DNA from: a virus
IMG/VR virus record: IMGVR_UViG_3300005617_000028
Coordinates: 62,001 to 126,000 of that record
Strand: one strand, 5' to 3'
DNA: 64,000 bases
Positions 10,144-25,399 of the stretch are shown piece by piece. The position numbers and the translations under genes are program-made. Position 1 is the stretch's first letter; each line of letters opens with the position of its first letter. The notes beneath the pieces are model-generated. The model was not told where the DNA came from and did not search any database. It was given only the letters and a program-made list of their open reading frames with translations.

Positions 10144-10211
10144 ACAGCGGTTGTGCTGCACCGACCGCGCGTGTCATGGTCATGGGGACAGCGACTATGG
10201 AGGTTCGAGTC

Positions 10212-10541
10212 ATGATCAGTCAACGCACGCCGCACCCCTCAGAACGCAACCCCTGGCCGGGGCACAACGTACCGGTACCCGTCCGCATCGACGGCAAACG
10301 GGTCCTCTCCGCCATCAAGCTGCTGCCCGCGCCGCGCCAGCCCGCCCACCAGTGGATGGTGGTCACCGAATTCCCCGGGGCCCTGTTCAACCTGCTGCGC
10401 GTGACCTACCGCGACGACCTGTACCAGGTTGCCGACAGCGTCGGTCCGATCGAGTCCTACTCGCAGGCGGTTGCCTGGATGATCCGGGTGGCCCAGTCCC
10501 ACGGAACACCCGCGCAGCTCACCGATTCGACCACGTCATGA
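10212..10541 (+). CDS. Small unknown protein with start-associated hairpin
   Basis: 109 residues from ATG 10212. A GGAGG ribosome site lies in the loop of a short hairpin whose arms GACT (10193-10196) and AGTC (10208-10211) end exactly at the start codon, the first example of the element described in the findings. The protein contains VPVRIDGKRVLSAIKLLPA and WMVVTEFPGALFNLLRVTYRDD, probably beta-rich. Its stop overlaps the next ATG. Function unknown. Confidence 0.68.
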   Translation: MISQRTPHPSERNPWPGHNVPVPVRIDGKRVLSAIKLLPAPRQPAHQWMVVTEFPGALFNLLRVTYRDDLYQVADSVGPIESYSQAVAWMIRVAQSHGTPAQLTDSTTS

Positions 10542-10939
10542 CCGCCACCCTGGACAGCATCGTGGTGCAACGCGGCGGCGTGTCCTACCAGGTCGACATC
10601 GTCCCCGATTCCTTCACCCACCCCCGCGACTTCGACGACCACCGCTACACCCCGGCCGATGAAGCCAACTACGGGGACGGCTGGCAGTTCGTGTCGGTGT
10701 CGGTCACCCCGGTCGGACATCACCTGTGCGCCGACTTCGATGGAATCGAATACGGGCAGAGCCTGCGCTGGCAGGTGAGTACCGCAGACCTGATCGAGCG
10801 CGCCGACGCCGAAAACTGGTTCGAGGAGGCCCATGCCAAGCTGATCACCGCTACCACCAAGAACCGGTCACGGTGGCTACAGGGCATACGCCGTCTTGTG
10901 GCGGCTGGCCGTAGGGCGCTCGTCAGTATCGTCCGCTGA
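10538..10939 (+). CDS. Unknown protein
   Basis: 133 residues from an ATG overlapping the previous stop. The N-terminal two-thirds looks beta-rich (QRGGVSYQVDIVPDSFTHP, GWQFVSVSVTPVG). The C-terminus is a basic helix (KNRSRWLQGIRRLVAAGRRALVSIV). Co-translated with the gene before it. No family recognised. Confidence 0.65.
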   Translation: MTATLDSIVVQRGGVSYQVDIVPDSFTHPRDFDDHRYTPADEANYGDGWQFVSVSVTPVGHHLCADFDGIEYGQSLRWQVSTADLIERADAENWFEEAHAKLITATTKNRSRWLQGIRRLVAAGRRALVSIVR

Positions 10940-10979
10940 GCGTGGCCACTGTCGACTGTGGACAACGGGGGAGACGACC

Positions 10980-11186
10980 ATGGCAACCAAGATCACCGTC
11001 ACCGACCGGCCGTGTCCGGACGCTGAACAGCACACCGTGGGCCCGCCCGGATACCTCGCATTCTTCGAGTGGGCCGCGCTCATGAACAAGACGCACCGCC
11101 AGTGCAAATGCTCCGGCTGCGGCTGCTGGATGATCTGGCGGCCACGGCGTGCCACCACGGAGCCACAAGACATCAATGTAAGCTGA
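10980..11186 (+). CDS. Small zinc-binding-type protein
   Basis: 68 residues from ATG 10980 with GGGGGAGA 5-12 bases upstream. A cluster HRQCKCSGCGCWMIW near residue 43, with an earlier RPCPD, could bind one zinc ion. The start further upstream in the open frame lacks a ribosome site. Function unknown. Confidence 0.62.
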   Translation: MATKITVTDRPCPDAEQHTVGPPGYLAFFEWAALMNKTHRQCKCSGCGCWMIWRPRRATTEPQDINVS

Positions 11187-11217
11187 CCTAGCCGCAACGA
11201 CTACGGGAGTTTGAGTC

Positions 11218-11571
11218 ATGACCGATTCACTGTTTCAGGAACCTGCCGCCGCCGGACCGCCCGAGCCCCCGCGTCTGCGGGGCCGTATGAAACGCCGTTT
11301 CGGGAAGGGCAACGTCTACACCGAGGTGGAGATGGCCGGTCGTCACAAGGCCCTGGAGAAGCAGGGGCGCCACTGCGACGCCAACTCCGGCCGCTGTCTG
11401 CAGGCCGCCACCAGGGCCCTGGAGGTGGTGGAGCTGGACAGCGTCACGGGTGAGCCACACGCCGAACGCGGCGAGCAGCGACGGGTACAGGTGTGCAGTC
11501 AGCACGCACCGATCTACACGCGCAGCTCCCGCTTCCGGGTGATCTCGGAGGAGCGCATCTCCGCGTCCTGA
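11218..11571 (+). CDS. Small unknown protein
   Basis: 117 residues from ATG 11218. The start is framed by the hairpin arms GACT (11199-11202) and AGTC (11214-11217), with GGGAG in the loop. Contains MKRRFGKGNVYTEVEMAGRHKALEKQGRHC and later VQVCSQHAPIYTR. Four cysteines are scattered. A hairpin terminator follows. Function unknown. Confidence 0.65.
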   Translation: MTDSLFQEPAAAGPPEPPRLRGRMKRRFGKGNVYTEVEMAGRHKALEKQGRHCDANSGRCLQAATRALEVVELDSVTGEPHAERGEQRRVQVCSQHAPIYTRSSRFRVISEERISAS

Positions 11572-11574
11572 AAA

Positions 11575-11616
11575 GTCGGCGGCCCCTCCTGGTAGACACG
11601 GGGTGGGGCCGCCGAC
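11575..11616 (+). terminator. Hairpin terminator
   Basis: A perfect 12-bp GC-rich stem (GTCGGCGGCCCC, 11575-11586, with 11605-11616) and an 18-base loop, starting 4 bases after a stop codon. It separates the replication block from the accessory genes. There is no T tract. Confidence 0.65.
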
Positions 11617-11633
11617 CTGTAGGGAGAACCGTC

Positions 11634-12191
11634 GTGACCGCAAACAACCTGTCCGTGTCCCAGGTGACGCTGGACGCCGTACAAGCCACCGCTGTGGTGG
11701 ACCGTCACGTGCATCAGATTGACATCGGCGCCCTGGCCATCCCTGAACAGATTCAGGCTCTCCGCGCGGCGTTCACCAGGGTGAGCGACGCGGGTACGGC
11801 CGGTGGTAGCAGCCAACAGTACCTACAGGCACTGCTGACTCTCGCTACGCGGGCCCTGCTGGCCGCCGAAGCCGGGGAGAACAGCGCAGCCACGGTAGAC
11901 ACGGAAGCCGCCGCACCGACTGAGATACCGCCGGACCCGTATGTCGTGAGCCACCCCGTCTTTGTCCGCAAGCTCGTCGACGCCGCGCTCCAACTGTTGC
12001 TGGCCGAACGCGCGTGCCTTTCTTCCCACCCTGATCCACAGACCGAACGTGCCACGGTGTCTCTGTGCCTGACCGCGCTGGATCTGGTCGCGGAGGTGGA
12101 CCAGCTTCCCCGCGCCGCCCAGCCTGTCGGCTGGCGCCGGTCACACGCCCGCCCGCCAGTAGATTTACGTACACCGAGGGACTTGACTTAA
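11634..12191 (+). CDS. Unknown protein, helical
   Basis: 185 residues from a GTG with AGGGAGAA 6-13 bases upstream. The upstream part of the open frame crosses a terminator and is excluded. Helical and hydrophobic stretches (YLQALLTLATRALLAAEAGE; LVDAALQLLLAERACL) suggest a helical bundle rather than membrane segments. The end of the gene contains the first recurrent class A promoter. Function unknown. Confidence 0.62.
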   Translation: MTANNLSVSQVTLDAVQATAVVDRHVHQIDIGALAIPEQIQALRAAFTRVSDAGTAGGSSQQYLQALLTLATRALLAAEAGENSAATVDTEAAAPTEIPPDPYVVSHPVFVRKLVDAALQLLLAERACLSSHPDPQTERATVSLCLTALDLVAEVDQLPRAAQPVGWRRSHARPPVDLRTPRDLT

Positions 12192-12212
12192 GTATGGTCG
12201 CCGCGTTACCAT
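12183..12212 (+). promoter_or_regulatory. Class A promoter
   Basis: TTGACT (12183-12188), 18-base spacer, TACCAT (12207-12212). It is the first of eight promoters with an 18-base spacer and conserved bases just after the -35. It should drive the gene at 12251. It overlaps the last codons of the preceding gene. Confidence 0.65.
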
Positions 12213-12250
12213 TCCCTGGCCAGGTTGGCTGAGCCGTGGAGGGAGTTCCA

Positions 12251-12703
12251 ATGACCGAGGTCCGCGTTCTTGGCCAGCAGGCAAGGAAGCTCATCGCTGA
12301 GTGCGGTGCCGAGCTGGACGACAATTCCCAGCACGCGCAGCAGCTTGTGGGGTGTGTCATCGCGCCGAGTGGAATCCGGTTCAAAGCCTCGGGCTGCCAC
12401 ACCATCGCCATGAACTACCTGACCGATCGTGCCGCCGGCTGGCGTGCGCTGCTGGCGGACCTGCGCGCGGGCGTGGAGCCATGCGACACACCAGAATGTG
12501 AAATGTGCGACGGCGTTGACCCGGGTAGCGCTGCGCTGCCGGTGGCCGGGCCGGCGAGCCCCACCCGCCGCCGCTACCGCCACGCGCGGTACCACCGGTC
12601 CCGTCCGGACACCACAGCCGTGTGTCCGGACCCAGAGAACTGCCCGCACCCCGGCGCGGTATCCGGCGACTCTTGCGAATGCTGCGGCGCGATCATCCCT
12701 TGA
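12251..12703 (+). CDS. Unknown protein with two C-terminal cysteine clusters
   Basis: 150 residues from ATG 12251 with a strong GGAGGGAG site 6-13 bases upstream. The first 80 residues are helical (FKASGCHTIAMNYLTDRAAGW). Then come CDTPECEMCDG and, at the very end, CPDPENCPHPG and DSCECCGAIIP. These cysteine groups probably bind one or two zinc ions. Between them is a basic linker. Function unknown. Confidence 0.66.
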   Translation: MTEVRVLGQQARKLIAECGAELDDNSQHAQQLVGCVIAPSGIRFKASGCHTIAMNYLTDRAAGWRALLADLRAGVEPCDTPECEMCDGVDPGSAALPVAGPASPTRRRYRHARYHRSRPDTTAVCPDPENCPHPGAVSGDSCECCGAIIP

Positions 12704-12747
12704 CTTCCGCCACCCGGACAAGGTAGGTTCTGTCTACCAGATAGACA
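12700..12747 (+). promoter_or_regulatory. Class B promoter with 17-bp palindromic operator
   Basis: TTGACT (12700-12705), 18-base spacer, TAGGTT (12724-12729), then the palindrome TGTCTACCAGATAGACA (12731-12747), which covers the expected transcription start. A regulator bound there would block initiation. It serves the gene run beginning at 12782. Confidence 0.8.
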
Positions 12748-12781
12748 CCACCGCAACGCAAGGCTTAGGAAAGGTCGGGCC

Positions 12782-13027
12782 ATGAGCGCAACACCCACCG
12801 CGGACGCTCCCAGCGAGGAGCAGACCTGGACCTTCTTCGGGTTCTGGGAGAACGACCGCATCGTCGTACAGTTCGAGACGCCCGGCGAGGTGGACGACGA
12901 CCGCGAAGACGATGGGACACACGAGCAGGGTCTGTGGGCCGCATCCGGCTCTGGCCCGACCATGGAAGAGGCACAGCGGCTCGTCGTTGCGGAGTACGAA
13001 GACGCCGAAGACGAGGACCTGTCATGA
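12782..13027 (+). CDS. Small acidic protein
   Basis: 81 residues from ATG 12782, preceded by the start-associated hairpin (GGCT 12762-12765, GGCC 12778-12781). Strongly acidic throughout (EVDDDREDDGTHE; EYEDAEDEDLS), with an aromatic start TWTFFGFWENDRIVVQFE. Such charge can mimic DNA, but there is no direct evidence. First gene of a three-gene run with ATGA overlaps. Confidence 0.65.
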   Translation: MSATPTADAPSEEQTWTFFGFWENDRIVVQFETPGEVDDDREDDGTHEQGLWAASGSGPTMEEAQRLVVAEYEDAEDEDLS

Positions 13028-13275
13028 GCGCCGCTGTCATGCATCCTTACCCAGACACGCTCGCGAAAGCACGAAAGGTAGGAGCGAGTAAGGCCAATGA
13101 TGTTGAGCTGCTGGCGCTCTACTGCGCCGATGTTCTACAGATCATTGTCGGGGCGGTGTCACCTCGACTTGTGTTTGAGGCCGCCCAGCAAAGAGGCATG
13201 ACCGCCCTCGATCTCGCAGCGCTCACACTCTCTGACCCCGCCGCCGTGTCCGAACTGCAATGGGACCTGTCATGA
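13024..13275 (+). CDS. Small unknown protein
   Basis: 83 residues; the ATG overlaps the previous stop. Helical (NDVELLALYCADVLQIIVGAVS and FEAAQQRGMTALDLAAL). Its start lies in a 21-bp sequence repeated exactly at the start of the next gene (13015-13035 and 13263-13283), so both proteins begin MSAA. Confidence 0.62.
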   Translation: MSAAVMHPYPDTLAKARKVGASKANDVELLALYCADVLQIIVGAVSPRLVFEAAQQRGMTALDLAALTLSDPAAVSELQWDLS

Positions 13276-13439
13276 GCGCCGCTAGCGACCTGCGCCGGGC
13301 CGAGGCCGTCCTGACTGAGCTGCTGGCCACCTACGCCAAGCACGGCTGCACCCCGGCCGAGACGGAGGACATGGAATCCGTTGTCAAGGCGCGCCGTAAC
13401 GTCGAATTCCTACGGGGCCGGAAGGGGGGCCGAAGGTGA
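13272..13439 (+). CDS. Very small unknown protein
   Basis: 55 residues from ATG 13272, overlapping the previous stop. A short helix-turn-helix-like layout (LRRAEAVLTELLATYAKHG, then TEDMESVVKARRNVEFLRG) ends in a basic tail. Third gene of the class B operon from 12782. Function unknown. Confidence 0.58.
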   Translation: MSAASDLRRAEAVLTELLATYAKHGCTPAETEDMESVVKARRNVEFLRGRKGGRR

Positions 13440-13470
13440 CCGCGAATGTACGCCGGGCTGCCGGGAACTC

Positions 13471-13518
13471 TTGACTTCCGTCACCGGGACAAGGTAGGTT
13501 CTGTCTACGAGATAGACA
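13471..13518 (+). promoter_or_regulatory. Class B promoter with palindromic operator
   Basis: TTGACT (13471-13476), 18-base spacer, TAGGTT (13495-13500), palindrome TGTCTACGAGATAGACA (13502-13518). Almost identical to the promoter at 12700 over the whole element. Serves the gene at 13552. Confidence 0.8.
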
Positions 13519-13551
13519 CCACCGAAATACCAGGCTAGGAAAGGTCGAGCC

Positions 13552-13944
13552 ATGAACGGAAACAGAGAACAGGTCATGACCACCGGTGCCGAATACGCTA
13601 GCTTGCCCGCAGACGAGCGCGAGGCTTTGCTGATGCGGCAACACGGCGAAGCGAGAACCGCCAGCCAGCGGTACGCCGCGCTGCTCGTGCTGGAGGCCGG
13701 GGTAAAGGCCCGCGAATTTCTGCCCTCGGTTACGAAGCTGGCTTTCCGGTTGGGTGATGGAGGGTCAGTGGTCACGCTGCTCACCGCCTACGGGGTCGGC
13801 GGGGAGGTTCTGTGGGACCTCGATGTGGATGAAGAGTGGCCCGACGAAAGCCAGGTCGCCGACAACCTGGAGGCGGCCTATGACGCGGATGTCAGGTGCT
13901 TTAAGCGTGACGGTGACCTGCATTGCATCACCGTCGACTGGTGA
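13552..13944 (+). CDS. Unknown protein
   Basis: 130 residues from ATG 13552, framed by hairpin arms GGCT (13533-13536) and AGCC (13548-13551) with AGGAAAGG in the loop. N-terminal half helical (YASLPADEREALLMRQHGE), C-terminal half acidic (LWDLDVDEEWPDESQVADNL). A later ATG (codon 9) is possible but lies further from the ribosome site. Function unknown. Confidence 0.66.
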   Translation: MNGNREQVMTTGAEYASLPADEREALLMRQHGEARTASQRYAALLVLEAGVKAREFLPSVTKLAFRLGDGGSVVTLLTAYGVGGEVLWDLDVDEEWPDESQVADNLEAAYDADVRCFKRDGDLHCITVDW

Positions 13945-13997
13945 CACCATCCCGTCACTCGTGTACGCAGTTTCTGACTAAGGAGTTTCGAGTCATC

Positions 13998-14723
13998 ATG
14001 AGTAATGTCAACCCGCCCAGCTACACCTTTGAGGAGCCGATCGGCACGATCCGTGTCGACGTGCTCACCGCCGAGGAGAACGACAGTCGTCGGCTCGCGC
14101 CGGAGCTTCAACCGCGTATCCGTGTGGACGCGACGCTGACCGTTCGCGGTGTGGCTTACCGCGTCTTCGCCAAATACCGGTGGGAGCGGACCGGTCACGC
14201 GGTCTATTCCCACGGCAATCCGACCGGCGCCCATACTTATTGGCAGGAGATCGACAGTCAGTACACCCGTGTCGACTCCGGTAAGCGGCCTGACTACAGC
14301 ACACCTACTTACCGCACTCTGTACGACACAGTGTGGCGCGTGCTCGGCCGGCTGGTCGCCGACCATCCCGAGTGGCAGCATGCCTCTCTGGTGGCCCGGC
14401 TGCGGAAGTTGGCCGCTGAGTCTGAGCAGACCGCTGCATCGGCCCGGTACCAGTGGATGGAAGCCACCACCAGGGCGGCCGCGCTGCGCGGCGAGCTGGC
14501 CACCGCCCTACTCGACCACAGTGCCGGGGTCAGCGGTGTGTGTCAGCACTGCGACCAACCAGTACGGCTGTCGGTCGACCCGTCGGTTCCCTGGGTGCAC
14601 ACGCAGACTGGTAACGGTTACTGCGACGTGTACGTACCCGTAGATGCGGTCATGTTGGCCGGCACGTCCGGCCGTACCGAGGCCAGCCCGTTGGCACAGA
14701 GCATTCAGGGAGAGCAGTCATGA
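13998..14723 (+). CDS. Unknown protein with C-terminal zinc-binding motif
   Basis: 241 residues from ATG 13998. The start is preceded by the GACT/AGTC form of the hairpin (13975-13978, 13991-13994) with AAGGAG in the loop. The first 90 residues look beta-rich (GTIRVDVLTAEEND). A helical segment (VARLRKLAAESEQTAASARY) follows. Near the end GVCQHCDQPVRLS...PWVHTQTGNGYCDV gives a CxxC...H...C pattern. Its stop overlaps the next start. Function unknown. Confidence 0.68.
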   Translation: MSNVNPPSYTFEEPIGTIRVDVLTAEENDSRRLAPELQPRIRVDATLTVRGVAYRVFAKYRWERTGHAVYSHGNPTGAHTYWQEIDSQYTRVDSGKRPDYSTPTYRTLYDTVWRVLGRLVADHPEWQHASLVARLRKLAAESEQTAASARYQWMEATTRAAALRGELATALLDHSAGVSGVCQHCDQPVRLSVDPSVPWVHTQTGNGYCDVYVPVDAVMLAGTSGRTEASPLAQSIQGEQS

Positions 14724-14863
14724 CAGTCCGAGGCGTGTTCCTGGTAGGGCTGACCGTTGCGGTCGGCGGGCTGGGCCTGGTCTTCTTCCCGCCCCTGGTC
14801 GTGGTCCTCATCGTGGCGCTCTGCCTGAGCCGGTTACGCCGGACCGCCAAGACTGGCAGTTGA
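14720..14863 (+). CDS. Small membrane protein
   Basis: 47 residues from ATG 14720, overlapping the previous stop. Almost all of residues 4-36 is hydrophobic (VFLVGLTVAVGGLGLVFFPP then LVVVLIVALCL), followed by SRLRRTAKTGS. This fits two short membrane helices with a basic tail on the inner side. Its stop codon overlaps the -35 of the next promoter. Function unknown. Confidence 0.6.
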   Translation: MTVRGVFLVGLTVAVGGLGLVFFPPLVVVLIVALCLSRLRRTAKTGS

Positions 14864-14907
14864 CAGGGCACCTGACCAGCGACTATGTTCTGTCTACGAG
14901 CTAGACA
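14860..14907 (+). promoter_or_regulatory. Class B promoter with palindromic operator
   Basis: TTGACA (14860-14865), 18-base spacer, TATGTT (14884-14889), palindrome TGTCTACGAGCTAGACA (14891-14907). The -35 begins inside the stop codon of the preceding gene. It serves the three genes 14954-15896. In the leader the GGCT/AGCC arms (from about 14922) have moved away from the start codon. Confidence 0.8.
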
Positions 14908-14953
14908 CCCCGCCGAAGGCTAAGCACCTTCCAGCCACATAAGGACGGACATC

Positions 14954-15208
14954 ATGGTAGTCATCACTGCCCGCACCGATCTCGCGCCTCTCACCGGCGT
15001 ACGGGTGCGCATCCAGAACACAGTGCGCGGTGAGCGGTTCACGCGCTACGGCGTGTTCACGGAGTTGTGGCACAGCGACGGCGCCCGGACCGGCATGGGC
15101 CCCCACGCTGGTGGCTACCTCACCGAGGAGCCGCACGGTTCCTGCCGGGGCGGCAATACGGCGTTCTGCCTGGACTACAACGACTCCACTGTGGAGGTTG
15201 CGCGATGA
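14954..15208 (+). CDS. Small unknown protein
   Basis: 84 residues from ATG 14954 with AAGGACGG upstream. Probably beta-rich (TGVRVRIQNTVRGERFTRYG, GNTAFCLDYNDSTVEVA). Its stop overlaps the next ATG. Function unknown. Confidence 0.66.
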   Translation: MVVITARTDLAPLTGVRVRIQNTVRGERFTRYGVFTELWHSDGARTGMGPHAGGYLTEEPHGSCRGGNTAFCLDYNDSTVEVAR

Positions 15209-15684
15209 GCGCGGTCGGGAGTCGGGTTCGTCTGCTCGCCTGGGGCTCGGACGAGGCACTGCGGGAAGACAGCGTGCCGCACGGCACCGAAGGCACCGTG
15301 GTCGCGGTAGAAGACGACGTCAACATGATTCACGTCCGGTGGGACACCGGCCTAGAGCTGGGGCTGATCCCCGAACACGACCGGTGGGAAGAGGTGGCAC
15401 CTTCGGTGACCGAGGTCGACCGCATCAGCAAACGCGCTCACGTGGCCGCGCTCCGGGCCGGGAACTTCTGCTACATCTACTCCGGCTCTGACCGTACCGA
15501 GGTCGCCGAGCGCGCCCGTACGGGGGAAGTGGGGATGACCGCTGCCAACCTCGATACCGAGGTGACCTGGCTACAGCCGCAACACTTCCACGAGACCTAC
15601 CAGCGGCTCTGTGACGCGGTCGGCTACCGCAACGTATACCTGATGCCCAGTACCGAGGGGAACGGCGCGGAGGCTGGTCCGTGA
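15205..15684 (+). CDS. DUF4314-like protein
   Basis: 159 residues from an ATG overlapping the previous stop. The N-terminal 60 residues fit the DUF4314 pattern: SRVRLLAW..., HGTEGTVVAVED, MIHVRWDTGLELGLIPEHDRW. This is a small SH3-like beta barrel often found in actinophage proteins. The rest (ISKRAHVAALRAGNFCYIYS...) is not recognised. The stop overlaps the next GTG. The biochemical role of the family is not established. Confidence 0.72.
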   Translation: MSAVGSRVRLLAWGSDEALREDSVPHGTEGTVVAVEDDVNMIHVRWDTGLELGLIPEHDRWEEVAPSVTEVDRISKRAHVAALRAGNFCYIYSGSDRTEVAERARTGEVGMTAANLDTEVTWLQPQHFHETYQRLCDAVGYRNVYLMPSTEGNGAEAGP

Positions 15685-15896
15685 GCCTGTTTCCTACCCC
15701 ACAGGACTACGCAGCCAACCCGCCCGGTAGCTGGACGATACAACGGCTGACACGCCGTCTGTACGCGCTCTGCGCGAGGGACGGCCGGGTGCTGGCCACC
15801 TACCCGCGCCGTGGTGACGCGGTCCGTGACGCAGACAGGATCAGAGCACAGTACGACCAGGAGAGACGCGCGACCACCGTAGACACTCGCTCTTGA
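15681..15896 (+). CDS. Small unknown basic protein
   Basis: 71 residues from a GTG overlapping the previous stop. Strongly basic (WTIQRLTRRLYALCARDGRV; RRGDAVRDADRIRAQYDQER). Its last codons lie inside the repeated promoter cassette that follows. Function unknown. Confidence 0.6.
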   Translation: MSLFPTPQDYAANPPGSWTIQRLTRRLYALCARDGRVLATYPRRGDAVRDADRIRAQYDQERRATTVDTRS

Positions 15897-15975
15897 CTTA
15901 GGTCTACCGCCCGGTGTACCTTACGTATGTAGGCAAACGAGCGACACCAGGAGGCGCCACCATGAACGATCAGGT
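15874..15975 (+). promoter_or_regulatory. Class A promoter and leader cassette, first copy
   Basis: TTGACT (15893-15898), 18-base spacer, TACCTT (15917-15922), then a leader with AGGAGG before ATG 15962. The 102 bases 15874-15975 recur at 16205-16306 with 8 differences, all transitions, and include the first five codons of the gene. Confidence 0.8.
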
Positions 15976-16192
15976 ACCCGCCAAGGAACCGACGGTAACC
16001 GTAAGTCTTCCGCGCAGTTACAGACTAGTCATCGAGTGTGGTGCGCCGGGCGAGAACATCGATGGTGCCGTGCGGCAGGCTACCGCCTGGTTGTGCGACA
16101 GCATCGACGAGAGTGGTGAGCATGACTTGACCGTAACGGTGACCGATGAAACGGGCGAGCTTGTCGCTCAGCACCAGTATCAAGCTCATTAG
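15962..16192 (+). CDS. Small unknown protein
   Basis: 76 residues from ATG 15962 with AGGAGG about 6 bases upstream. The first five residues (MNDQV) are shared with the next gene because the whole leader is duplicated; the rest differs. Contains VTVSLPRSYRLVIECGAPG and DLTVTVTDETGELVAQHQYQ, probably beta-rich. Function unknown. Confidence 0.66.
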   Translation: MNDQVPAKEPTVTVSLPRSYRLVIECGAPGENIDGAVRQATAWLCDSIDESGEHDLTVTVTDETGELVAQHQYQAH

Positions 16193-16204
16193 GGACGCGC
16201 GTGT

Positions 16205-16306
16205 CCACCGTAGACACTCGCTCTTGACTTAGGTCTACTGTTTGGTGTATCTTACGTATGTAAGCAAGCGAGCGACACCAGGAGGCGCCACCATGAACGA
16301 CCAGGT
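16205..16306 (+). promoter_or_regulatory. Class A promoter and leader cassette, second copy
   Basis: TTGACT (16224-16229), 18-base spacer, TATCTT (16248-16253), same AGGAGG leader. Near-copy of 15874-15975, offset by 331 bases. Serves the gene at 16293. Confidence 0.8.
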
Positions 16307-16565
16307 TTCCGTTACCGAGGTGGTCGACCTGTCCGACGAGCTGACCGGCGAGGCCGAACACATCCGCGATAGCGGCGTATCCACCGAGGCCGAGGTCCAC
16401 CGGTTCTGGCACCGCATCAACGGGCCGGCCGAGGAGGTCGGGTGTCCGTGGGATGCTTGTCACAATCCGCGGGATGACTACGACGGGCCGGCCTGGTGTG
16501 GCCAGTGGATCGACTCGGCCGACTACTGCTCCGGCGACCACGGCGCCGAACAACAACCGTTCTGA
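16293..16565 (+). CDS. Small cysteine-containing protein
   Basis: 90 residues from ATG 16293. After the shared MNDQV the sequence is acidic and helical (VVDLSDELTGEAEHIRD), then carries GCPWDACHNPRDDYDGPAWC and DYCSGDHG, a possible zinc site. The family is not recognised. Confidence 0.64.
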   Translation: MNDQVSVTEVVDLSDELTGEAEHIRDSGVSTEAEVHRFWHRINGPAEEVGCPWDACHNPRDDYDGPAWCGQWIDSADYCSGDHGAEQQPF

Positions 16566-16601
16566 GTCCGCACAACCGTTGAGGCTAGGGAGAATCAAGC
16601 C

Positions 16602-17247: not shown

Positions 17248-17277
17248 CCGCACACCGAGGCTAAGGACAATCAAGCC

Positions 17278-19015: not shown

Positions 19016-19020
19016 GCCAC

Positions 19021-19042: not shown

Positions 19043-19058
19043 CGGCGCGCGACAGCGC

Positions 19059-19088
19059 TTGACGTAGGTACACCGACGGGTGTACGTT
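19059..19088 (+). promoter_or_regulatory. Class A promoter
   Basis: TTGACG (19059-19064), 18-base spacer, TACGTT (19083-19088). The spacer contains the dyad GTACACC-GAC-GGGTGTAC, which could bind a regulator. Serves the gene at 19130. Confidence 0.75.
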
Positions 19089-19129
19089 CACCACATCAGC
19101 AAAGCACGGCTACGGAAAGTTGGAGCCAC

Positions 19130-19696
19130 ATGCGCAAGACATGGAATCACGTACCGCCGGAGTCCACCCAGCCCTGTCCCGATGACAATATGAGTATGTG
19201 TGTGATCGGACAGGTCGGAGTCTGGCACGGTGACCGGCGGAAGCTCATTCACACGGAATCGGCTATGGAGATCGCCGCATGGTGGCAGGGTCCGCGCTCG
19301 CCCGGACTCACCGCGTTTGCCAGTACCGGAACCATCACGCCGGACCTGCTACTGGAAATCGCCGCCGCGCGTCGCACGGTGACCGGTGCCGACGGTGACG
19401 ACCTGGACGCGCTGGCGGCCTACGTGCGCGCCGTGGTGATCCTGACAGGCGACGACGCTGCCTACCACGGCGCAGAGGAGACGTGCGACCATTGCACCGA
19501 TTCCGGTTGCCTCTACATGGCCAGCGCGATCACGTTCACAGTCCAGGTGGAGGTAACGCGCGGTTCCGGCCCGTGGCAGGTTACGTCGGCAGTAGCCAGC
19601 GCTCTTGGTGAGGCTATCGCCAACGCGGGCGCCGGAGTTTTCTCCGTGCTGGGTTCTGAGTACTGGACCACGGGCGTACGGTCCCGCCGTGCCTGA
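19130..19696 (+). CDS. Unknown protein
   Basis: 188 residues from ATG 19130; arms GGCT (19108-19111) and AGCC (19124-19127) with CGGAAAG in the loop. Middle part helical (LDALAAYVRAVVILTGDDAA), then CDHCTDSGCLYM, a possible metal site, and a beta-rich end (ITFTVQVEVTRGSGPWQVTS). The stop lies 8 bases inside the next gene. Function unknown. Confidence 0.66.
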   Translation: MRKTWNHVPPESTQPCPDDNMSMCVIGQVGVWHGDRRKLIHTESAMEIAAWWQGPRSPGLTAFASTGTITPDLLLEIAAARRTVTGADGDDLDALAAYVRAVVILTGDDAAYHGAEETCDHCTDSGCLYMASAITFTVQVEVTRGSGPWQVTSAVASALGEAIANAGAGVFSVLGSEYWTTGVRSRRA

Positions 19697-19832
19697 TGAG
19701 GTTTGGATCAACGAGTCGCGCGCCGAGATGTGCGAGTGCGGTTGTGACACTGACCTACATGACGTAGTGGAAGTCGATGTTTTCTGTCCCAACTGCGGTG
19801 TGTGGTGCGCGGATGTGAGGGACATCGCTTGA
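19689..19832 (+). CDS. Very small zinc-ribbon-type protein
   Basis: 47 residues from a GTG overlapping the end of the previous gene. MCECGCDTDLHD and VFCPNCGVWCADV give two cysteine groups typical of a minimal zinc ribbon. Its stop overlaps the -35 of the next promoter. Function unknown. Confidence 0.6.
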   Translation: MPDEVWINESRAEMCECGCDTDLHDVVEVDVFCPNCGVWCADVRDIA

Positions 19833-19875
19833 CACTGTGAGTACGACAGGCTAGCTTGTGTCTAGCAGGTAGACA
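19829..19875 (+). promoter_or_regulatory. Class B promoter with palindromic operator
   Basis: TTGACA (19829-19834), 17-base spacer, TAGCTT (19852-19857), palindrome TGTCTAGCAGGTAGACA (19859-19875). Serves the gene at 19900. Confidence 0.8.
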
Positions 19876-19899
19876 GAACGGCTACGGAAAGTAGGAGCC

Positions 19900-20271
19900 A
19901 TGGAAATTCTCGCTTACCACAACGCACGGTCGAACGACGATCGCGATTTCGCCTTTCTCACACACAAGACGGGTGAGCCGGTAGTCCTGGTCTTCCGCAC
20001 CGAAATCCCGGATCAGGATGATCTCGCGGCGTGCGAGTGGGCTTTCCACCTGCTCAACGTTGGCCATGAGGCTTTCGGTACGCCCGATCCGGCAGCCATC
20101 GAGTACCGCGCACGCGGTAACAGGTCACTGTCGGTTGGCGACGTCGTTTCGGTTGACGGTCGGTTCTACGCGGTTGCGTCGTATAGCTGGGCGCCGATCG
20201 ACAAACCGCCGATGGTCGAAACCACTGCGCCGGGCACTACGCCGATCGCGGATACGGCTCTTGACGGGTGA
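19900..20271 (+). CDS. Small unknown protein
   Basis: 123 residues from ATG 19900; arms GGCT (19880-19883) and AGCC (19896-19899). The sequence is mixed alpha/beta (DRDFAFLTHKTGEPVVLVFR; RSLSVGDVVSVDGRFYAVAS). Base composition is less GC-rich than in the replication genes. Function unknown. Confidence 0.65.
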   Translation: MEILAYHNARSNDDRDFAFLTHKTGEPVVLVFRTEIPDQDDLAACEWAFHLLNVGHEAFGTPDPAAIEYRARGNRSLSVGDVVSVDGRFYAVASYSWAPIDKPPMVETTAPGTTPIADTALDG

Positions 20272-20305
20272 TGGGCAAGCAGGCTACTGTCTAGCTAGTT
20301 GACAG
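20261..20305 (+). promoter_or_regulatory. Class B promoter with palindromic operator
   Basis: TTGACG (20261-20266), 18-base spacer, TACTGT (20285-20290), palindrome TGTCTAGCTAGTTGACA (20289-20305), which overlaps the -10 by two bases. The -35 lies in the last codons of the preceding gene. Serves 20337 and 20672. Confidence 0.75.
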
Positions 20306-20336
20306 GCACAACCCAACGGCTAGGGAAGTAGGAGCC

Positions 20337-20672
20337 ATGGAAACTCGCAGCTACGCGGACGGTACATCGATCACAGTCAAGATGCCGTGGTCGGTGTACG
20401 TGAGCGCACGGGTACTCTGTTCGGACGGCAAGGTGCGCGCCACGGCACGGATTGCATTGACGGCCGACACCTTCTTTTCGGTGCCGTGCGCGGTTAAGGT
20501 TTCCGGCCGGACGGTTTCCGGTTACCTCACAGTGGAGACGCGCGAGGGAATGTCTACCGAAACCACGGATGATCCGGCCGTCGTTAAGTTCATCGCGTGC
20601 GGCAAGAACGCCGACGCGCTGCCGACCGGTGCCTACGTCGTACCCGCCACGGTTTCATCGGCGGTTTCCTGA
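20337..20672 (+). CDS. Small unknown protein
   Basis: 111 residues from ATG 20337; arms GGCT (20318-20321) and AGCC (20333-20336) with AGGGAAG in the loop. Largely beta-rich (TSITVKMPWSVYVSARVLCS; FSVPCAVKVSGRTVSGYLTV). Stop overlaps the next ATG. Function unknown. Confidence 0.65.
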   Translation: METRSYADGTSITVKMPWSVYVSARVLCSDGKVRATARIALTADTFFSVPCAVKVSGRTVSGYLTVETREGMSTETTDDPAVVKFIACGKNADALPTGAYVVPATVSSAVS

Positions 20673-20905
20673 TGGGCGCCACACGGCAGCGTTTCACGCC
20701 GGCCGAGCGCTCGGCCCTGCTGATCGGCGCGGACATCGAATGGCGCCACGGTTCTCGGTGGTACGCCGGAACGGTTTCCGGCCCGATTACCACGGATGAA
20801 ATCGGTGCGCAGTACGTACCGGTTACGCACACAATCAAGAGCCCAACGGTTTCACCCGGAGGGATGCGCGGTTACCCGAAACAGATTCGCGTGCTGGCGG
20901 TTTGA
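20672..20905 (+). CDS. Small unknown protein
   Basis: 77 residues; ATG 20672 overlaps the preceding stop (TGATG). Contains FTPAERSALLIGADIEWRHG and a beta-rich remainder with SRWYAGTVSGPIT. Could be a small SH3-like domain, but this is a guess. Confidence 0.62.
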   Translation: MGATRQRFTPAERSALLIGADIEWRHGSRWYAGTVSGPITTDEIGAQYVPVTHTIKSPTVSPGGMRGYPKQIRVLAV

Positions 20906-20920
20906 CACGGGTTTCAGCTC

Positions 20921-20950
20921 TTGACTTAGGTTCACTACGGTGTGTACGTT
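20921..20950 (+). promoter_or_regulatory. Class A promoter
   Basis: TTGACT (20921-20926), 18-base spacer, TACGTT (20945-20950), with the class A AGGT after the -35. Serves the gene at 20988. Confidence 0.78.
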
Positions 20951-20987
20951 CATGCCACACAACCAAACGGCTACGGAAGTAGGAGCC

Positions 20988-21428
20988 ATGTCAAGTACCC
21001 GTATCGGCGTAGCGTACGGCCCGATTCACAACGGTCGACAGAACACGTACGCGGTTTACCGCGTCAACGTGGACGCGACGGTAACCGTTGAACACACCGG
21101 TCACCGTGAGGGTACGACCATGGTCGGGCTGCCGTTGGGCGGGCCCGGGTGGCGGCCGCCGACACGGTTCGATAGCGACATCGATCACTTCGTTGAGATC
21201 ACGTTTCTCCGCCACTGTGGCGAGATGCCATCGCACATCGGCTCGCGCGCCATGGCTGGCATCGATCAGGCAACCGACAGCGACGGCGTACGGGTGCGTG
21301 AGTGCACCGGCCGGTACGGCACGCTAGACGGGCCGCACAGTACGTACGGTGCCACGGTCCGATGGGATGATGGCTCGCGGTTCTACGTGGACTCTGCGTG
21401 CCTGTGGCGGGTCCCATCGGCCCTGTAG
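20988..21428 (+). CDS. Unknown protein
   Basis: 146 residues from ATG 20988; arms GGCT (20969-20972) and AGCC (20984-20987). The C-terminal third (VRVRECTGRYGTLDG...YGATVRWDDGSRFYVDSACLW) looks like a small beta barrel of the same general type as DUF4314. The N-terminal part is beta-rich as well. A terminator hairpin follows. Function unknown. Confidence 0.65.
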   Translation: MSSTRIGVAYGPIHNGRQNTYAVYRVNVDATVTVEHTGHREGTTMVGLPLGGPGWRPPTRFDSDIDHFVEITFLRHCGEMPSHIGSRAMAGIDQATDSDGVRVRECTGRYGTLDGPHSTYGATVRWDDGSRFYVDSACLWRVPSAL

Positions 21429-21441
21429 CGTGGACACGCTA

Positions 21442-21471
21442 GGCCCGGTCGGTACGCCCGGCCGGGCCTTT
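21442..21471 (+). terminator. Rho-independent-type terminator
   Basis: Stem GGCCCGG (21442-21448) with CCGGGCC (21462-21468), extended inside by CGG/CCG, followed by TTTG. It ends the transcript of the 20988 gene just before the tandem repeats. Confidence 0.65.
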
Positions 21472-21478
21472 GCCGTCG

Positions 21479-21725
21479 CTGCCCGCTTGCACGCTGCCGC
21501 TCGCCTGTCCGCTTGCACGCTGCCGCTTGCACGCTGCCGCTCGCCTGTCCGCTCGCACGCTGCCGCTCGCCTGTCCGCTCGCACGCTGCCGCTCGCACGC
21601 TGCCGCTCGCACGCGCACGCACGCCTGTCCGCTCGCACGCCTGTCCGCTCGCACGCGCACGCACGCTGCCGCTCGCACGCTGCCGCTCGCCTGTCCGCTC
21701 GCACGCTGCCGGCTCGCCTCGCTAG
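21479..21725. repeat. Tandem repeat block of two alternating words
   Basis: About 245 bases built almost only from two short words, GCTGCCGCTCGCAC and GCCTGTCCGCTCGCAC, in irregular order, with an occasional extra GCGCACGCAC and a few T variants at the left end. It sits between a terminator and a class B promoter. Open frames through it in several frames are by-products of the repeat. No spacer-repeat regularity of the CRISPR kind. Confidence 0.85.
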
Positions 21726-21742
21726 CTAGAAATTATTGCTAC

Positions 21743-21786
21743 TTGACTCGCCAGAGACGCACAGGCTACTGTCTACCTAGTTGACA
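21743..21786 (+). promoter_or_regulatory. Class B promoter with palindromic operator
   Basis: TTGACT (21743-21748), 18-base spacer, TACTGT (21767-21772), palindrome TGTCTACCTAGTTGACA (21770-21786). Very similar to the copy at 20261. Serves the DUF932 gene. Confidence 0.75.
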
Positions 21787-21813
21787 CCACGGCTACGGAA
21801 CATGGGAGCTATC

Positions 21814-22836
21814 ATGACTGCCGAAATGACTCGATTCGCCCGATCGCTGGACAGTACGGAATTTCAGCCGTTGAACGGCAGGCGTGACCCGTTCGATCTA
21901 CTGTCCAGTGTGAGTGCCAACGTTGGCGACGCACAGACCATGATGGAAACGGCCGGCGTACTCGGTTGGTCGCCGGAAATGATTCCGCTATCCGGAATGG
22001 ATAGCGTCGGCAACATGTACGAAACTCCGGCCAGCAATTACGGAATCGTCGTACCGACCTATCCGACAGGTCCGGCCTATTTCGGTCAGGCTCACAAGGA
22101 TTTCAAATTCATCCGTCCGGAAGCGTTGCATCCGCTGATCGACGCGATTGTCGCGCACGGCAATCCGCTCACGGGGATTATTCCGGGCCCGGTTACCCGA
22201 TTCGTCTTCGATTCTAAACTGATCGACATCACGCCGTATAGCAAGGCAGCGGCTGAGAACATCGGCGAAATTATCCGTGTGCGCTGGCAACTGGACCTCG
22301 GCAACACTGGCAAGAATTCCCTTGTCATTGGCCAGAAGGGTATGCGTCTAATCTGCGCGAATGGGGTGAGTACGGCTTCGTCAATGGGTAGCGTGTCGAT
22401 CTCGCATAGCAATCTCGCGCCGGGCAAGATCGCTGCCACGGTCGATCGGATCATGAGTCAGGGAAACATCGGACTCGATAAGTGGATTACGGACGCTCGC
22501 CAGACGATCAACGCTCGCTTGACACTGGACGGAGCACTCGCACTGTGGGCGGATCTGTTCTCATGGACTGACGACAAGGACGGGCGCGCGCTCACCACAC
22601 AAGACTCGCAGCGTGCGACGCTTACCCAGCTCTGGCGGTCCCCTACCCAGACGATCACGTACCCGGAAACAGCGTGGGCGTTTTTCGGCGCGACAACCGA
22701 ATACCTCGACCATGAGGCGACCGTCCGATTTGGTGGCGACACTCGTGAGCGTGCGCTCGCACGTCGGGTAGTCGAGTCCGCTCCGGCCGTCGAGTCCGTC
22801 AAGAATCGCGCATGGGAGATGGCGCTAGCCGTCTAG
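21814..22836 (+). CDS. DUF932-family protein, second copy
   Basis: 340 residues from ATG 21814; arms GGCT (21791-21794) and AGCT (21807-21810, one G-U pair). Family features: TAGVLGWSPEMIPL near residue 50, a beta-rich core (ITRF-type VTRFVFDSKLIDITPY) and KGMRLICANGVSTASSMGSV, the typical 'R.(V/I)C.NG' motif. The C-terminal half is helical and ends SVKNRAWEMALAV. The codons are clearly less GC-biased than those of the other copy at 8177, which suggests a different origin. The family's biochemical role is not established. Confidence 0.78.
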   Translation: MTAEMTRFARSLDSTEFQPLNGRRDPFDLLSSVSANVGDAQTMMETAGVLGWSPEMIPLSGMDSVGNMYETPASNYGIVVPTYPTGPAYFGQAHKDFKFIRPEALHPLIDAIVAHGNPLTGIIPGPVTRFVFDSKLIDITPYSKAAAENIGEIIRVRWQLDLGNTGKNSLVIGQKGMRLICANGVSTASSMGSVSISHSNLAPGKIAATVDRIMSQGNIGLDKWITDARQTINARLTLDGALALWADLFSWTDDKDGRALTTQDSQRATLTQLWRSPTQTITYPETAWAFFGATTEYLDHEATVRFGGDTRERALARRVVESAPAVESVKNRAWEMALAV

Positions 22837-22851
22837 GCAACGCGCACGGGT

Positions 22852-22885
22852 GAGGCGAGGGGACAGTCCCCTCGCCTCGCTCTTG
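22852..22885 (+). terminator. Rho-independent terminator
   Basis: A perfect 12-bp stem (22852-22863 with 22867-22878), 3-base loop, then a T-rich stretch (GCTCTTGTTTG). Ends the DUF932 transcript. Confidence 0.85.
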
Positions 22886-22908
22886 TTTGTCATACGTACG
22901 TTGTTCGT

Positions 22909-22938
22909 TTGACTTAGGTACAGCACGGATGCTAGTTT
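22909..22938 (+). promoter_or_regulatory. Class A promoter
   Basis: TTGACT (22909-22914), 18-base spacer, TAGTTT (22933-22938). Serves the gene at 22995. In its leader the arms GGCC (22955-22958) and GGCC (22970-22973) lie 22 bases before the start. Confidence 0.7.
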
Positions 22939-22994
22939 GACATCTCAACCAAACGGCCACGGATAATCGGGCCCAGAGCAAAGGATCAGCCATC

Positions 22995-23327
22995 ATGGAT
23001 GTCAACGCTACGTGGTCAGAAATTCTCGCCATCCTGTCGCAGCCGATGACATCGGAAAACGCAGACCGGCTCGAAGAGCTTGCCTACGCGCTTGACGGTT
23101 GGCTTGCGCGTGGCGGTTACGCTCCCGGTACTTGGCCGGTAGGCACACTCGGGTACTACCGCCACGCATGCGCTTACGGTGAGTCGGTAGGCATGTCCGA
23201 TGGCGAGTGCGTCACGTACGCCGCATGGTTCGTGGCGGAATGGGCAACCGACATCGACACAGACACGGATCACACTCGCGAGGTAGTGCGCTTCCGTCGG
23301 ATCATGAGCGTCGCCACGGTCGTCTAG
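22995..23327 (+). CDS. Unknown protein, paralogue of 23754-24155
   Basis: 110 residues from ATG 22995. The C-terminal half (YYRHACAYGESVGMSDGECV then TYAAWFVAEW) matches the same part of the gene at 23754 (WRHAYYYAEVVHHMYADECE then AYAEWF), so the two are related copies. Both have the same promoter class and near-identical terminators. Acidic, helical, no known motif. Confidence 0.68.
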   Translation: MDVNATWSEILAILSQPMTSENADRLEELAYALDGWLARGGYAPGTWPVGTLGYYRHACAYGESVGMSDGECVTYAAWFVAEWATDIDTDTDHTREVVRFRRIMSVATVV

Positions 23328-23346
23328 CCCGTACGCCGCAACGCGG

Positions 23347-23380
23347 AACCGCGCCACCCAAACCATGGGTGGCGCGGTTT
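23347..23380 (+). terminator. Rho-independent terminator, copy 1
   Basis: A 13-bp stem (23347-23359 with 23367-23379), 7-base loop, ending TTT. The roughly 50 bases around it recur almost unchanged at 24160-24208. Confidence 0.85.
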
Positions 23381-23408
23381 CTGTATCTGCCCTACATCTG
23401 TAGTCTGT

Positions 23409-23438
23409 TTGACTTAGGTACCCTCGCCACGGTACCGT
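23409..23438 (+). promoter_or_regulatory. Class A promoter, possibly leaderless
   Basis: TTGACT (23409-23414), 18-base spacer, TACCGT (23433-23438). The ATG at 23445 lies only 6 bases after the -10, so the transcript should begin at or next to the start codon. Confidence 0.65.
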
Positions 23439-23444
23439 GCGCCT

Positions 23445-23654
23445 ATGAGTCGTGATACCGCAGAGAACCGCGCCGCGTACGTCCGTGGTTGGGCTGCGTC
23501 CGTTCGCCACGCAGAAGGCGCCTTAGAACGCGCCGATGATCGTGGCGAAATCGGCGCATGGTACGACGGATATCTCGACTACGCAGCCGATCGGCCGAAG
23601 TGGCACACGCTGCGTTGCCTAAGCGATAACCACGACACGTGCGACACGCCTTAA
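23445..23654 (+). CDS. Small unknown protein
   Basis: 69 residues from ATG 23445, apparently on a leaderless message. Helical and charged (RAAYVRGWAASVRHAEGALE), then GAWYDGYLDYAADRPKWHTL and a Cys/His/Asp-rich end (RCLSDNHDTCDTP). Function unknown. Confidence 0.62.
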   Translation: MSRDTAENRAAYVRGWAASVRHAEGALERADDRGEIGAWYDGYLDYAADRPKWHTLRCLSDNHDTCDTP

Positions 23655-23667
23655 ATCTGTACCTCGT

Positions 23668-23697
23668 TTGACTTAGGTACTCTCGCCACGGTACGTT
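23668..23697 (+). promoter_or_regulatory. Class A promoter
   Basis: TTGACT (23668-23673), 18-base spacer, TACGTT (23692-23697). The leader repeats that at 22909, including GGCC arms at 23714-23717 and 23728-23731. Serves the gene at 23754. Confidence 0.75.
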
Positions 23698-23753
23698 GAC
23701 ATCTCAACCAAACGGCCACGCATAATCGGCCACGCGCTACGGAGGTTCCACCC

Positions 23754-24155
23754 ATGGTCAGCTACTCCACAGATGAGATGATCAACATTCTGCGTTCCGG
23801 CCACGGCTACTCGCCAGACGACGTTACGTCGGTCCTAGATCAACTCATCTCGGCCGGACTGGACACTGTGACCGAGAATGAGGCTAGCGGCTACACGTTC
23901 ACTGTCGATGAATTGCGTACCGCGTTGCTGCAGCTCATCGCACGGGTACCTATGGCGCTGCAGTCGTGGCTTTGGCGCCACGCATACTACTACGCCGAGG
24001 TAGTTCATCACATGTACGCCGATGAGTGTGAGGCGTACGCGGAGTGGTTCACGCTGCGATACGCCGACCCGTTGACACTGACCACGGCTATCTGTCACTC
24101 ACGCGAGGTTCCGGTATGGCGCGCCACGGTACCGACCATGGTCACGCTCGGCTAG
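23754..24155 (+). CDS. Unknown protein, paralogue of 22995-23327
   Basis: 133 residues from ATG 23754 with ACGGAGG upstream. The N-terminal part is helical (DVTSVLDQLISAGLDTVTEN). The C-terminal part (WRHAYYYAEVVHHMYADECE, AYAEWF) matches the gene at 22995. Flanked by a matching promoter and terminator. No functional motif. Confidence 0.66.
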   Translation: MVSYSTDEMINILRSGHGYSPDDVTSVLDQLISAGLDTVTENEASGYTFTVDELRTALLQLIARVPMALQSWLWRHAYYYAEVVHHMYADECEAYAEWFTLRYADPLTLTTAICHSREVPVWRATVPTMVTLG

Positions 24156-24177
24156 CCGCTTACGCCGCAACGCGGAA

Positions 24178-24208
24178 CGCGCCACCCAACCATGGGTGGC
24201 GCGGTTTT
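24178..24208 (+). terminator. Rho-independent terminator, copy 2
   Basis: A 10-bp stem (24178-24187 with 24194-24203), 6-base loop, ending TTTT. Near-copy of the terminator at 23347. Confidence 0.85.
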
Positions 24209-25235
24209 CGTATGTCCGGCCGACGTGACCACAGAAACAGCGCTTTCCGCCGACTTCCCGATTCTCCCAGAAAAGCCAAGAGGCCCGTAGAGCCGATCGC
24301 TACCCGTTGTCTGTCGGGATGGTAAGCCCATCCCTGCCTACCCTGCCCGATCGCTGCCCTACGGACACCACAGAGGCTCTGGCGACCCATCCTCCGGACC
24401 ATGGGTCCCCAACCGATGATGTGACCTCTGTACCGTCCGGCTACTCGTGGCCAACTCGGCCAATCATCAGGGAACCGCGTGCGCTCACGTACCCGTACCG
24501 CGTAGCCGGCTAACCGTCGGGACCGCTTACGTACCCGTGCGACTGTGAACCGCTAGCCGGTACCCGTACGGTCAGCACACGTGGCAGTCACCTTCAGTTG
24601 GGGCTTACTGTCAGAATCGCTGGCCACGCTCATTCGCACGCTGATCGATCCGAGCATGTCCGGCTAGTCCGAGCCTGACTGTATCGCGTCCCAGAGTCCA
24701 TTTCTGCCAGATCGACGCTACCGGCTCAGAACGGCTACAGGGTCCACGGGTACCAACTTGGCATGCTGGACCGCGTATGGGCCTCTGTGGCTGTCGCAAG
24801 CCCTACCGTGGCGCGGTTCGTACCCTGCCAATCGGGAGCGTGGCTTGCCATTCTGAACATGGGTGACCGATCGGTCGGGTACGTGACCTAGCGTCCGATA
24901 TTGTCGGCAATCCCTTACGCCGCAACGGATGTAGCCTCGCCACGACGCTTGCGCTCCATAAAGGACGTTGAGTGGATCATGCGAAAACGCTAGTTGATCT
25001 TTCCTACCCGATCCAGCACCAGACAAGATCAACCCATGCCCGAAAGCCCGATCACGCTGATCCGTGGGCACCTATGATCGGGCAGGCTTTCGGGCAGGGT
25101 CGGAACAGGACCTATCGGCTGCTAGAGCGACGCTTGCCATGGGTGCCCAGAGGTACGCTTTTGGGCATGGCTATCTGTGCGCAATTCCTGTAGCGTCACG
25201 GGTAGCGCGCACCCATCGGAACGCGCACCGGTCAC
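24209..25235. other. Gene-free stretch with several hairpins
   Basis: About 1 kb in which no open frame has plausible codon use or a ribosome site. I looked for tRNAs on both strands and found no T-loop. Hairpins seen: 24316-24322 with 24328-24334 (7 bp); 24371-24376 with 24425-24430, enclosing a perfect 7-bp stem 24384-24390/24401-24407; 24993-25000 with 25026-25033 (8 bp); and a large one, 25037-25054 with 25075-25096 (18 bp, one 4-base bulge). It could encode a structured RNA or be a control or packaging region. Confidence 0.55.
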
Positions 25236-25249
25236 GGAAGTAGGGACCC

Positions 25250-25399
25250 ATGGACGAACAATGCGAGTACGGGGACTGTGTCTCAGAGGACGGCTACGGC
25301 ACGTGCGAGGGATGCGGCCACCCGATGTCGGTTGATCACTCGCCTGTGAGCGTGCGCAGCACGTGCGAAGACGCTCCCTGTTGCGGATGTTGCTCATGA
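25250..25399 (+). CDS. Very small cysteine-rich protein
   Basis: 49 residues from ATG 25250. The start is framed by arms GGTC (25230-25233) and GACC (25245-25248) with CGGAAG in the loop, a covarying form of the accessory-gene hairpin. Cysteines at CEYGDC, GTCEGCGHPM and APCCGCC could bind two metal ions. Its stop overlaps the next ATG. Confidence 0.66.
   Translation: MDEQCEYGDCVSEDGYGTCEGCGHPMSVDHSPVSVRSTCEDAPCCGCCS

Follow-up and report, generated by a model that had tools for sequence, protein, structure and literature searches.

The DNA considered here is a window of 64,000 nucleotides, positions 62001–126000 of the virus record IMGVR_UViG_3300005617_000028 (129,139 bases in all), and the element in question is a short hairpin with a ribosome-binding site in its loop that recurs before the start codons of accessory genes. 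The record holds terminase, portal, RecA-like and endolysin genes and thus belongs to a tailed phage. Among cultured phages, Microbacterium phage Magritte is the closest relative that was found (50% identity for the portal, 36% for another conserved gene), a likeness that points to an actinobacterial host for this large phage. All copies of the hairpin lie on the + strand of the accessory region of the window, between 10 and 25.3 kb. The genes behind them are short and unrelated, and nearly all are without a family match; one, which starts at ATG 21814, encodes a DUF932 protein.

The fourteen start-codon hairpins listed in an initial annotation of this DNA are all present, thirteen of them at the positions given there and one displaced by a single base (the GACT arm begins at 13976, not 13975). 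They share a layout in which a 4-bp stem closes a loop of 11–12 nt with a GGA ribosome site and the second arm ends 0–3 nt before the ATG; the arms begin 15–16 nt apart, as had been claimed. In ten copies the stem runs directly into the start codon: GACT-atggaggttcg-AGTC (10193–10211, ATG 10212), GACT-acgggagtttg-AGTC (11199–11217, ATG 11218), GGCT-taggaaaggtcg-GGCC (12762–12781, ATG 12782; a 12-nt loop and one U-G pair at the loop end), GGCT-aggaaaggtcg-AGCC (13533–13551, ATG 13552), GGCT-agggagaatca-AGCC (16583–16601, ATG 16602), GGCT-aaggacaatca-AGCC (17259–17277, ATG 17278), GGCT-aaggaaaatca-AGCC (17729–17747, ATG 17748), GGCT-acggaaagtagg-AGCC (19880–19899, ATG 19900; a 12-nt loop), GGCT-agggaagtagg-AGCC (20318–20336, ATG 20337) and GGCT-acggaagtagg-AGCC (20969–20987, ATG 20988). 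The other four stop short of it: GGTC-acggaagtagg-GACC by 1 nt (25230–25248, ATG 25250), GGCT-acggaaagttgg-AGCC, with a 12-nt loop, by 2 nt (19108–19127, ATG 19130), and GACT-aaggagtttcg-AGTC (13976–13994, ATG 13998) and GGCT-acggaacatggg-AGCT, with one G-U pair at its base (21791–21810, ATG 21814), by 3 nt each.

Three further copies, which bring the total to 17, are displaced 17–22 nt upstream of an ATG: GGCT-aagcaccttcc-AGCC (14918–14936, 17 nt before ATG 14954), GGCC-acggataatcg-GGCC (22955–22973, 21 nt before ATG 22995) and GGCC-acgcataatc-GGCC (23714–23731, 22 nt before ATG 23754), the last with a 10-nt loop, so that loop length ranges from 10 to 12 nt over the whole set. In 14918 and 23714 the loop GGA has been replaced by GCA and the stem is retained. 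Over the 17 loops, the first A is conserved in 16, the G at position 3 in all, the G at position 4 in 14 and the A at position 5 in 16, and most loops accordingly begin A-N-G-G-A. The distance from the GGA core to the AUG is approximately 8–13 nt. This geometry is concentrated in the accessory region: among the 108 candidate ATGs on its + strand (those open for at least 35 codons), nine have the combination of a 4-bp stem, an 11-nt loop and no gap, against a mean of about 0.55 for each of the 83 remaining loop/gap pairings, and the rest of the genome has no excess at this combination (9 of 760, with neighbouring cells at 2–12).

Pairing of the arms is complete. All 17 stems are paired at all four positions (68 of 68 cells, 66 Watson-Crick and 2 G-U), and both departures from Watson-Crick pairing, at 12762 and 21791, are wobbles. 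In the 12 gap-free copies, 48 of 48 cells are paired, both partners have changed in three of the four pairs (6 double-change cells against a shuffled mean of 1.1) and the covariation score is 0.439, compared with 0.216 for shuffled and at most 0.265 for slid controls; RNAalifold returns the identical stem. The shuffles take no account of relatedness among copies, and lineages were counted instead: paired exchange has occurred in at least three of them, GACT/AGTC in three copies, GGTC/GACC in one and GGCC/GGCC in two. The clearest comparison is that of copies 25230 and 20969, which have the identical 11-nt loop ACGGAAGTAGG and arms GGTC/GACC and GGCT/AGCC, respectively; four arm positions differ, both inner pairs have been exchanged, and every change is compensated. 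The earlier statement that the arms change together thus stands, and its assessment as good evidence for pairing holds within this genome.

Because the sites had first been noticed by their pairing, the genome was also searched with the loop alone, ignoring the arms. Exact matches fall solely at known sites, every one an intact hairpin. With a weight matrix for the loop, the top ranks are mainly paired starts, and several lower matches are unpaired and either chance or in-gene; one of the matches, at 23739, is a loop-like stretch with unpaired arms upstream of ATG 23754. The initial annotation had also proposed a covariance model with which to search this genome and its relatives. Trained on twelve copies with 11-nt loops, such a model recovers its own sites and the untrained copies with 12-nt loops at 19108 and 19880; the other matches in the genome, including the diverged copy 23714, score at chance level, and in four related large phages, Magritte and the cluster K genomes it finds nothing convincing.

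The leaders that carry the hairpin follow promoters of the form TTGAC-17/18-TA...T. That of the cassette at 12782 is a predicted sigma-70-like promoter, TTGACT-18-TAGGTT (12700–12729, + strand), and similar predicted promoters on the same strand begin at 13471, 14860, 17670, 19059, 19829, 20261, 20921, 21743, 22909 and 23668, all assigned by consensus and position. Just past the −10 box of the first lies an operator-like palindrome, TGTCTA-N5-TAGACA (12731–12747, + strand), further copies of which start at 13502, 14891, 17231, 17700 and 19859. The predicted 5′ leaders are approximately 30–46 nt long for the copies at starts. In the 14 start copies the hairpin stands 0–3 nt from the AUG, and recognizable −10 boxes lie some 16–32 nt upstream at variable distance; since the spacing to the start codon is fixed and that to the −10 box varies, the element would belong to translation. 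An RNA rather than a DNA element is favoured by the fixed AUG distance, by departures that are wobbles, by a loop that varies between 10 and 12 nt and by the gene-sense orientation of every copy, and the palindromes are better candidates for DNA operators than the hairpin.

Other kinds of gene start occur in the same region. Two near-identical promoter-leader units (AGCGACACCAGGAGGCGCCACCATG; 15893–15963 and 16224–16295) are without the hairpin, and both of their genes start MNDQV. A promoter TTGACT-18-TACCGT (23409–23447) lies six bases upstream of ATG 23445, so that this gene, which sits amid the hairpin cassettes, is probably leaderless. Directly 5′ of ATG 12251, TGGA-gggagt-TCCA (12237–12250) is a possible hairpin of another geometry with a ribosome site in its loop, and may be due to chance.

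In position, the hairpin recalls the start-associated sequences (SASs) of cluster K mycobacteriophages, as had been pointed out in the initial annotation. SASs, with the consensus GGGATAGGAGCCC, are found in one orientation at the starts of non-structural genes, contain a GGA site, and about half of them are accompanied by an extended start-associated sequence (ESAS) (PMC3203893, PMC11373665). Their discoverers saw the outer symmetry GGGNNNNNNNCCC and outer bases that are conserved without pairing to 16S RNA, and proposed no hairpin (PMC3203893); in later papers the role of SASs is described as unclear (PMC11373665, PMC12699233). Both elements are repeated motifs at non-structural starts, in one orientation, with GC-rich symmetrical outer bases around GGA, and the 14 start copies described here, 0–3 nt before an ATG on the + strand of an accessory region, are located as SASs are. 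However, the SAS has a 3-nt symmetry around a 7-nt centre and ends 3–9 nt before the start, whereas this hairpin has a 4-bp stem and an 11–12-nt loop. The SAS consensus is not reached with up to two mismatches: the closest sites, 20969 and 20318, contain TAGGAGCC, and GAAGTAGGAGCCA has four mismatches on direct reading. Among 86 loop-exact SAS copies in five cluster K genomes, 69 have GGG/CCC and 3 of the 17 departures are fully paired; SASs hardly covary, unlike the hairpin arms here. The likeness is one of position and layout, and the hairpin is set apart by its stem, its loop length and its covariation. As for the ESAS, which consists of 17-bp imperfect inverted repeats with a SigA-like promoter, many copies here stand behind a promoter and a palindrome, TGTCTA-N5-TAGACA or another, after the −10 box. 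In Aminay, positions 7144–7166 read CCCCGCAG-ataggag-CTGCGGGG; here a strong hairpin has the SAS centre in its loop, and a normal SAS follows a short distance downstream.

Phage T4 offers a precedent for the control of many early genes at their ribosome sites, by RegA and by RegB, which cuts GGAG Shine-Dalgarno sequences (PMC3014915). The resemblance would lie in one phage factor that acts on many early mRNAs, but RegA sites are without structure; a search for the RegA family (PF01818) gave no match in the record, and RegB was not searched for.

The search for relatives of the hairpin outside this genome gave other leader elements instead. Exact and degenerate hairpin patterns returned only chance matches, without promoter or repeats, from viral contigs and reference genomes; a search with the operator pattern found no related regulon, plasmids contained no hairpin match, and no earlier report of such a covarying start hairpin was found in the open-access literature, which is not proof of its absence. 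A conserved gene of this phage recurs, at 37–49% identity, in four large viral contigs. Neither these nor Magritte, whose genome was read from end to end, contain this hairpin family, but several of these relatives carry a repeated leader of their own. In G006, GCC-caNNaaacgga-GGC precedes 14 starts behind TTGACACGTGTC promoters, on both strands between approximately 22 and 68 kb, and one further copy with the arms GGC/GCC is a single compensated pair. Magritte (OR553905) has eight leader hairpins (40136–40154, 40811–40829, 42204–42222, 45108–45126, 45861–45879, 46297–46315, 47337–47355 and 47784–47802), each with a 6-bp stem and a conserved 7-nt loop (CAAGAGA, CACAAGA or CAACAGA), located upstream of the Shine-Dalgarno sequence and followed by CCCACGAAGGG and the start codon; 95% of their cells are paired, with a covariation score of 0.905 against 0.331 shuffled. 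These, too, are repeated, covarying hairpins in the leaders of separately promoted accessory genes, but their position upstream of the Shine-Dalgarno sequence, near the predicted 5′ end, and their different stem and loop make them another element.

The leader of G004, CAAGACGAGCTAGGGAG, is without a second arm. In the minus-strand leaders of that contig with ATGs at 38062, 39002, 42158 and 42475 (reverse complement of bases 1–76298), the −35 box lies between the arms of inverted repeats of 7–8 bp and gene-specific sequence, such as GTGGGAAG/CTTCCCAC and TGCCAGG/CCTGGCA. In G005, AACAAGAAT is repeated just 5′ of many start codons, and a palindrome, GAGTTGACA-N2-TGACAACTC, occurs at other starts, possibly leaderless ones.

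What can be read directly from the sequence is that the element recurs, that its stem covaries and that its position is bound to the AUG and its occurrence to accessory genes. From this we infer that the accessory cassettes share the family as an element of translation initiation, either a structured ribosome-binding site or a translational operator; to this reading we assign a probability of roughly 0.72. Each of these accessory genes would have a transcript of its own, whose short 5′ leader contains one copy as an RNA hairpin; in it the 4-bp stem closes the 11–12-nt loop bearing the Shine-Dalgarno core and the second arm occupies the spacer to the AUG. The loop would present the Shine-Dalgarno sequence to the 30S subunit or to a competing RNA-binding protein, and the weak local stem would hold the spacer and open as the start codon enters the ribosome. 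A cassette would thus consist of a promoter with its operator-like palindrome, the hairpin and an orphan gene, and every cassette would have the same translational behaviour irrespective of its coding sequence.

Several observations weigh against this proposal. The stem is a weak one, with free energies of −0.6 to −2.7 kcal/mol among the 14 copies at starts and −2.5 to −5.0 kcal/mol among the displaced ones. For the leader by itself the median predicted probability of the stem is 0.67, and with ten codons added it is 0.17, so that pairing is not demanded by thermodynamics alone. The 5′ ends are predicted, and no clear promoter precedes the copies at 10193, 11199, 13976, 16583 and 25230. As the copies arose by duplication, the independent double changes may number only three; the copies were initially chosen by pairing, a bias that the loop-only searches remove only in part; and relatives, phages, plasmids and reference genomes yielded no homologous hairpin family for an independent test. 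Moreover, searches of the record for CsrA, RegA, cold-shock and S1 domains gave no match, and a trans-acting factor is hypothetical.

The covariation bears on two very improbable explanations. If cassettes had been duplicated together with their leaders, the hairpin could be a copied ribosome-site motif whose pairing reflects common descent and small numbers; the leaders at 17259 and 17729, and those at 22955 and 23714, are clearly duplicates, and whole-arm shuffles leave 11.5 of 17 copies paired, most arms being identical. Yet such shuffles never reach 17 of 17, the exact loop matches include no broken stem, and descent accounts poorly for four compensated arm differences around the identical 11-nt loop of 25230 and 20969. 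The same pair of copies argues against a DNA site at which a dimeric protein recognizes inverted half-sites near the gene start, because nothing would oblige one half-site to follow the changes of the other beside an unchanged loop. That explanation, if anything slightly the less credible of the two, could draw on the operator-like palindromes that are common in the same leaders and on the cluster K ESAS inverted repeats, which are regarded as DNA sites (PMC3203893), but it is at odds with a fixed spacing to the AUG and a variable one to the promoter, with imperfect copies that are both G-U wobbles, with a half-site spacing that varies by up to 2 bp and with asymmetric loops that are always gene-sense.

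The remaining explanations concern the partner of the RNA. A passive structured ribosome-binding site or insulator, with the ribosome as sole partner and the spacer kept from pairing with the coding sequence, is a serious if tentative possibility: it fits the position at the AUG, the GGA in the loop and the failure to find a protein candidate in the record, and in T4 genes 25 and 38 a structure between the Shine-Dalgarno sequence and the AUG can raise initiation (PMC3014915). Those cases are alike in being phage RNA structures in this spacer and unlike in that the helix lies wholly within it and serves single genes, whereas here the Shine-Dalgarno sequence is in the loop and many genes are involved; split initiation, in which a helix shortens a long spacer, does not apply to a GGA core inside the loop. 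A stem that is often outcompeted once coding sequence is present would, however, insulate poorly, and neither the conserved loop A1 nor the stems kept without GGA in two displaced copies would be expected. Less probable, and on balance unlikely, is a CsrA/RsmE-like site, with a protein on the loop A-N-G-G-A that competes with the ribosome at the whole set of starts. Short stems (up to 4 pairs) and an ANGGA loop that overlaps the Shine-Dalgarno sequence are hallmarks of CsrA sites (PMC7652899, PMC7366521), and most loops here begin in this way, inside a short hairpin; but 11–12 nt is longer than the known ANGGAN hexaloop, GGA is in any case the core of the Shine-Dalgarno sequence, and a search with PF02599 found no CsrA domain in the record.

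Within the proposed translation-initiation element, a trans-acting factor is slightly favoured over a structured ribosome site that acts only passively, because A1, which adjoins the stem and is conserved in 16 of 17 copies, is not explained by anti-Shine-Dalgarno pairing, and because two displaced copies have lost the GGA and kept the stem. These two copies, which would no longer be ribosome sites, hint (n = 2) at a role beyond the display of the Shine-Dalgarno sequence, and a stem that is weak but covaries suggests transient use during initiation, or protein binding. A more speculative and rather doubtful extension is a phage-wide translational regulon, in which one RNA-binding protein of the phage or the host, or a specialized ribosome state, would switch about 14 accessory starts together, relatives having swapped in private hairpin types, so that leader hairpins would serve as a fast-evolving identity tag of the cassettes.

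Other candidates were set aside. A terminator was rejected, there being no T-run after the stem; a 4-bp stem is too short for a terminator or an RNase III site. As for a small regulatory RNA that could pair with the loops, there was one near match only, antisense and inside the structural region. Rfam gave two sub-threshold matches only in 10000–25600, none at hairpin sites, and the record contains no homologue of Magritte's Ro-like RNA-binding protein. Elsewhere in the window, a low-complexity run of CTCGCACGCTGCCG / CTCGCCTGTCCG units lies between accessory genes (21500–21715), and an open frame of 2342 amino acids with collagen-like G-P/A-X repeats (48827–55855) probably encodes a fibre.

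The start-associated sequences of cluster K have been known since 2011, without a function. The family with covarying arms described here provides a concrete and testable idea, that of a ribosome site in a hairpin loop, for which naturally compensated variants are at hand. Since hairpins of other types occupy this place in two relatives, it also suggests that in large phages of this kind RNA structures in the leader may be a common layer of control for many orphan genes.

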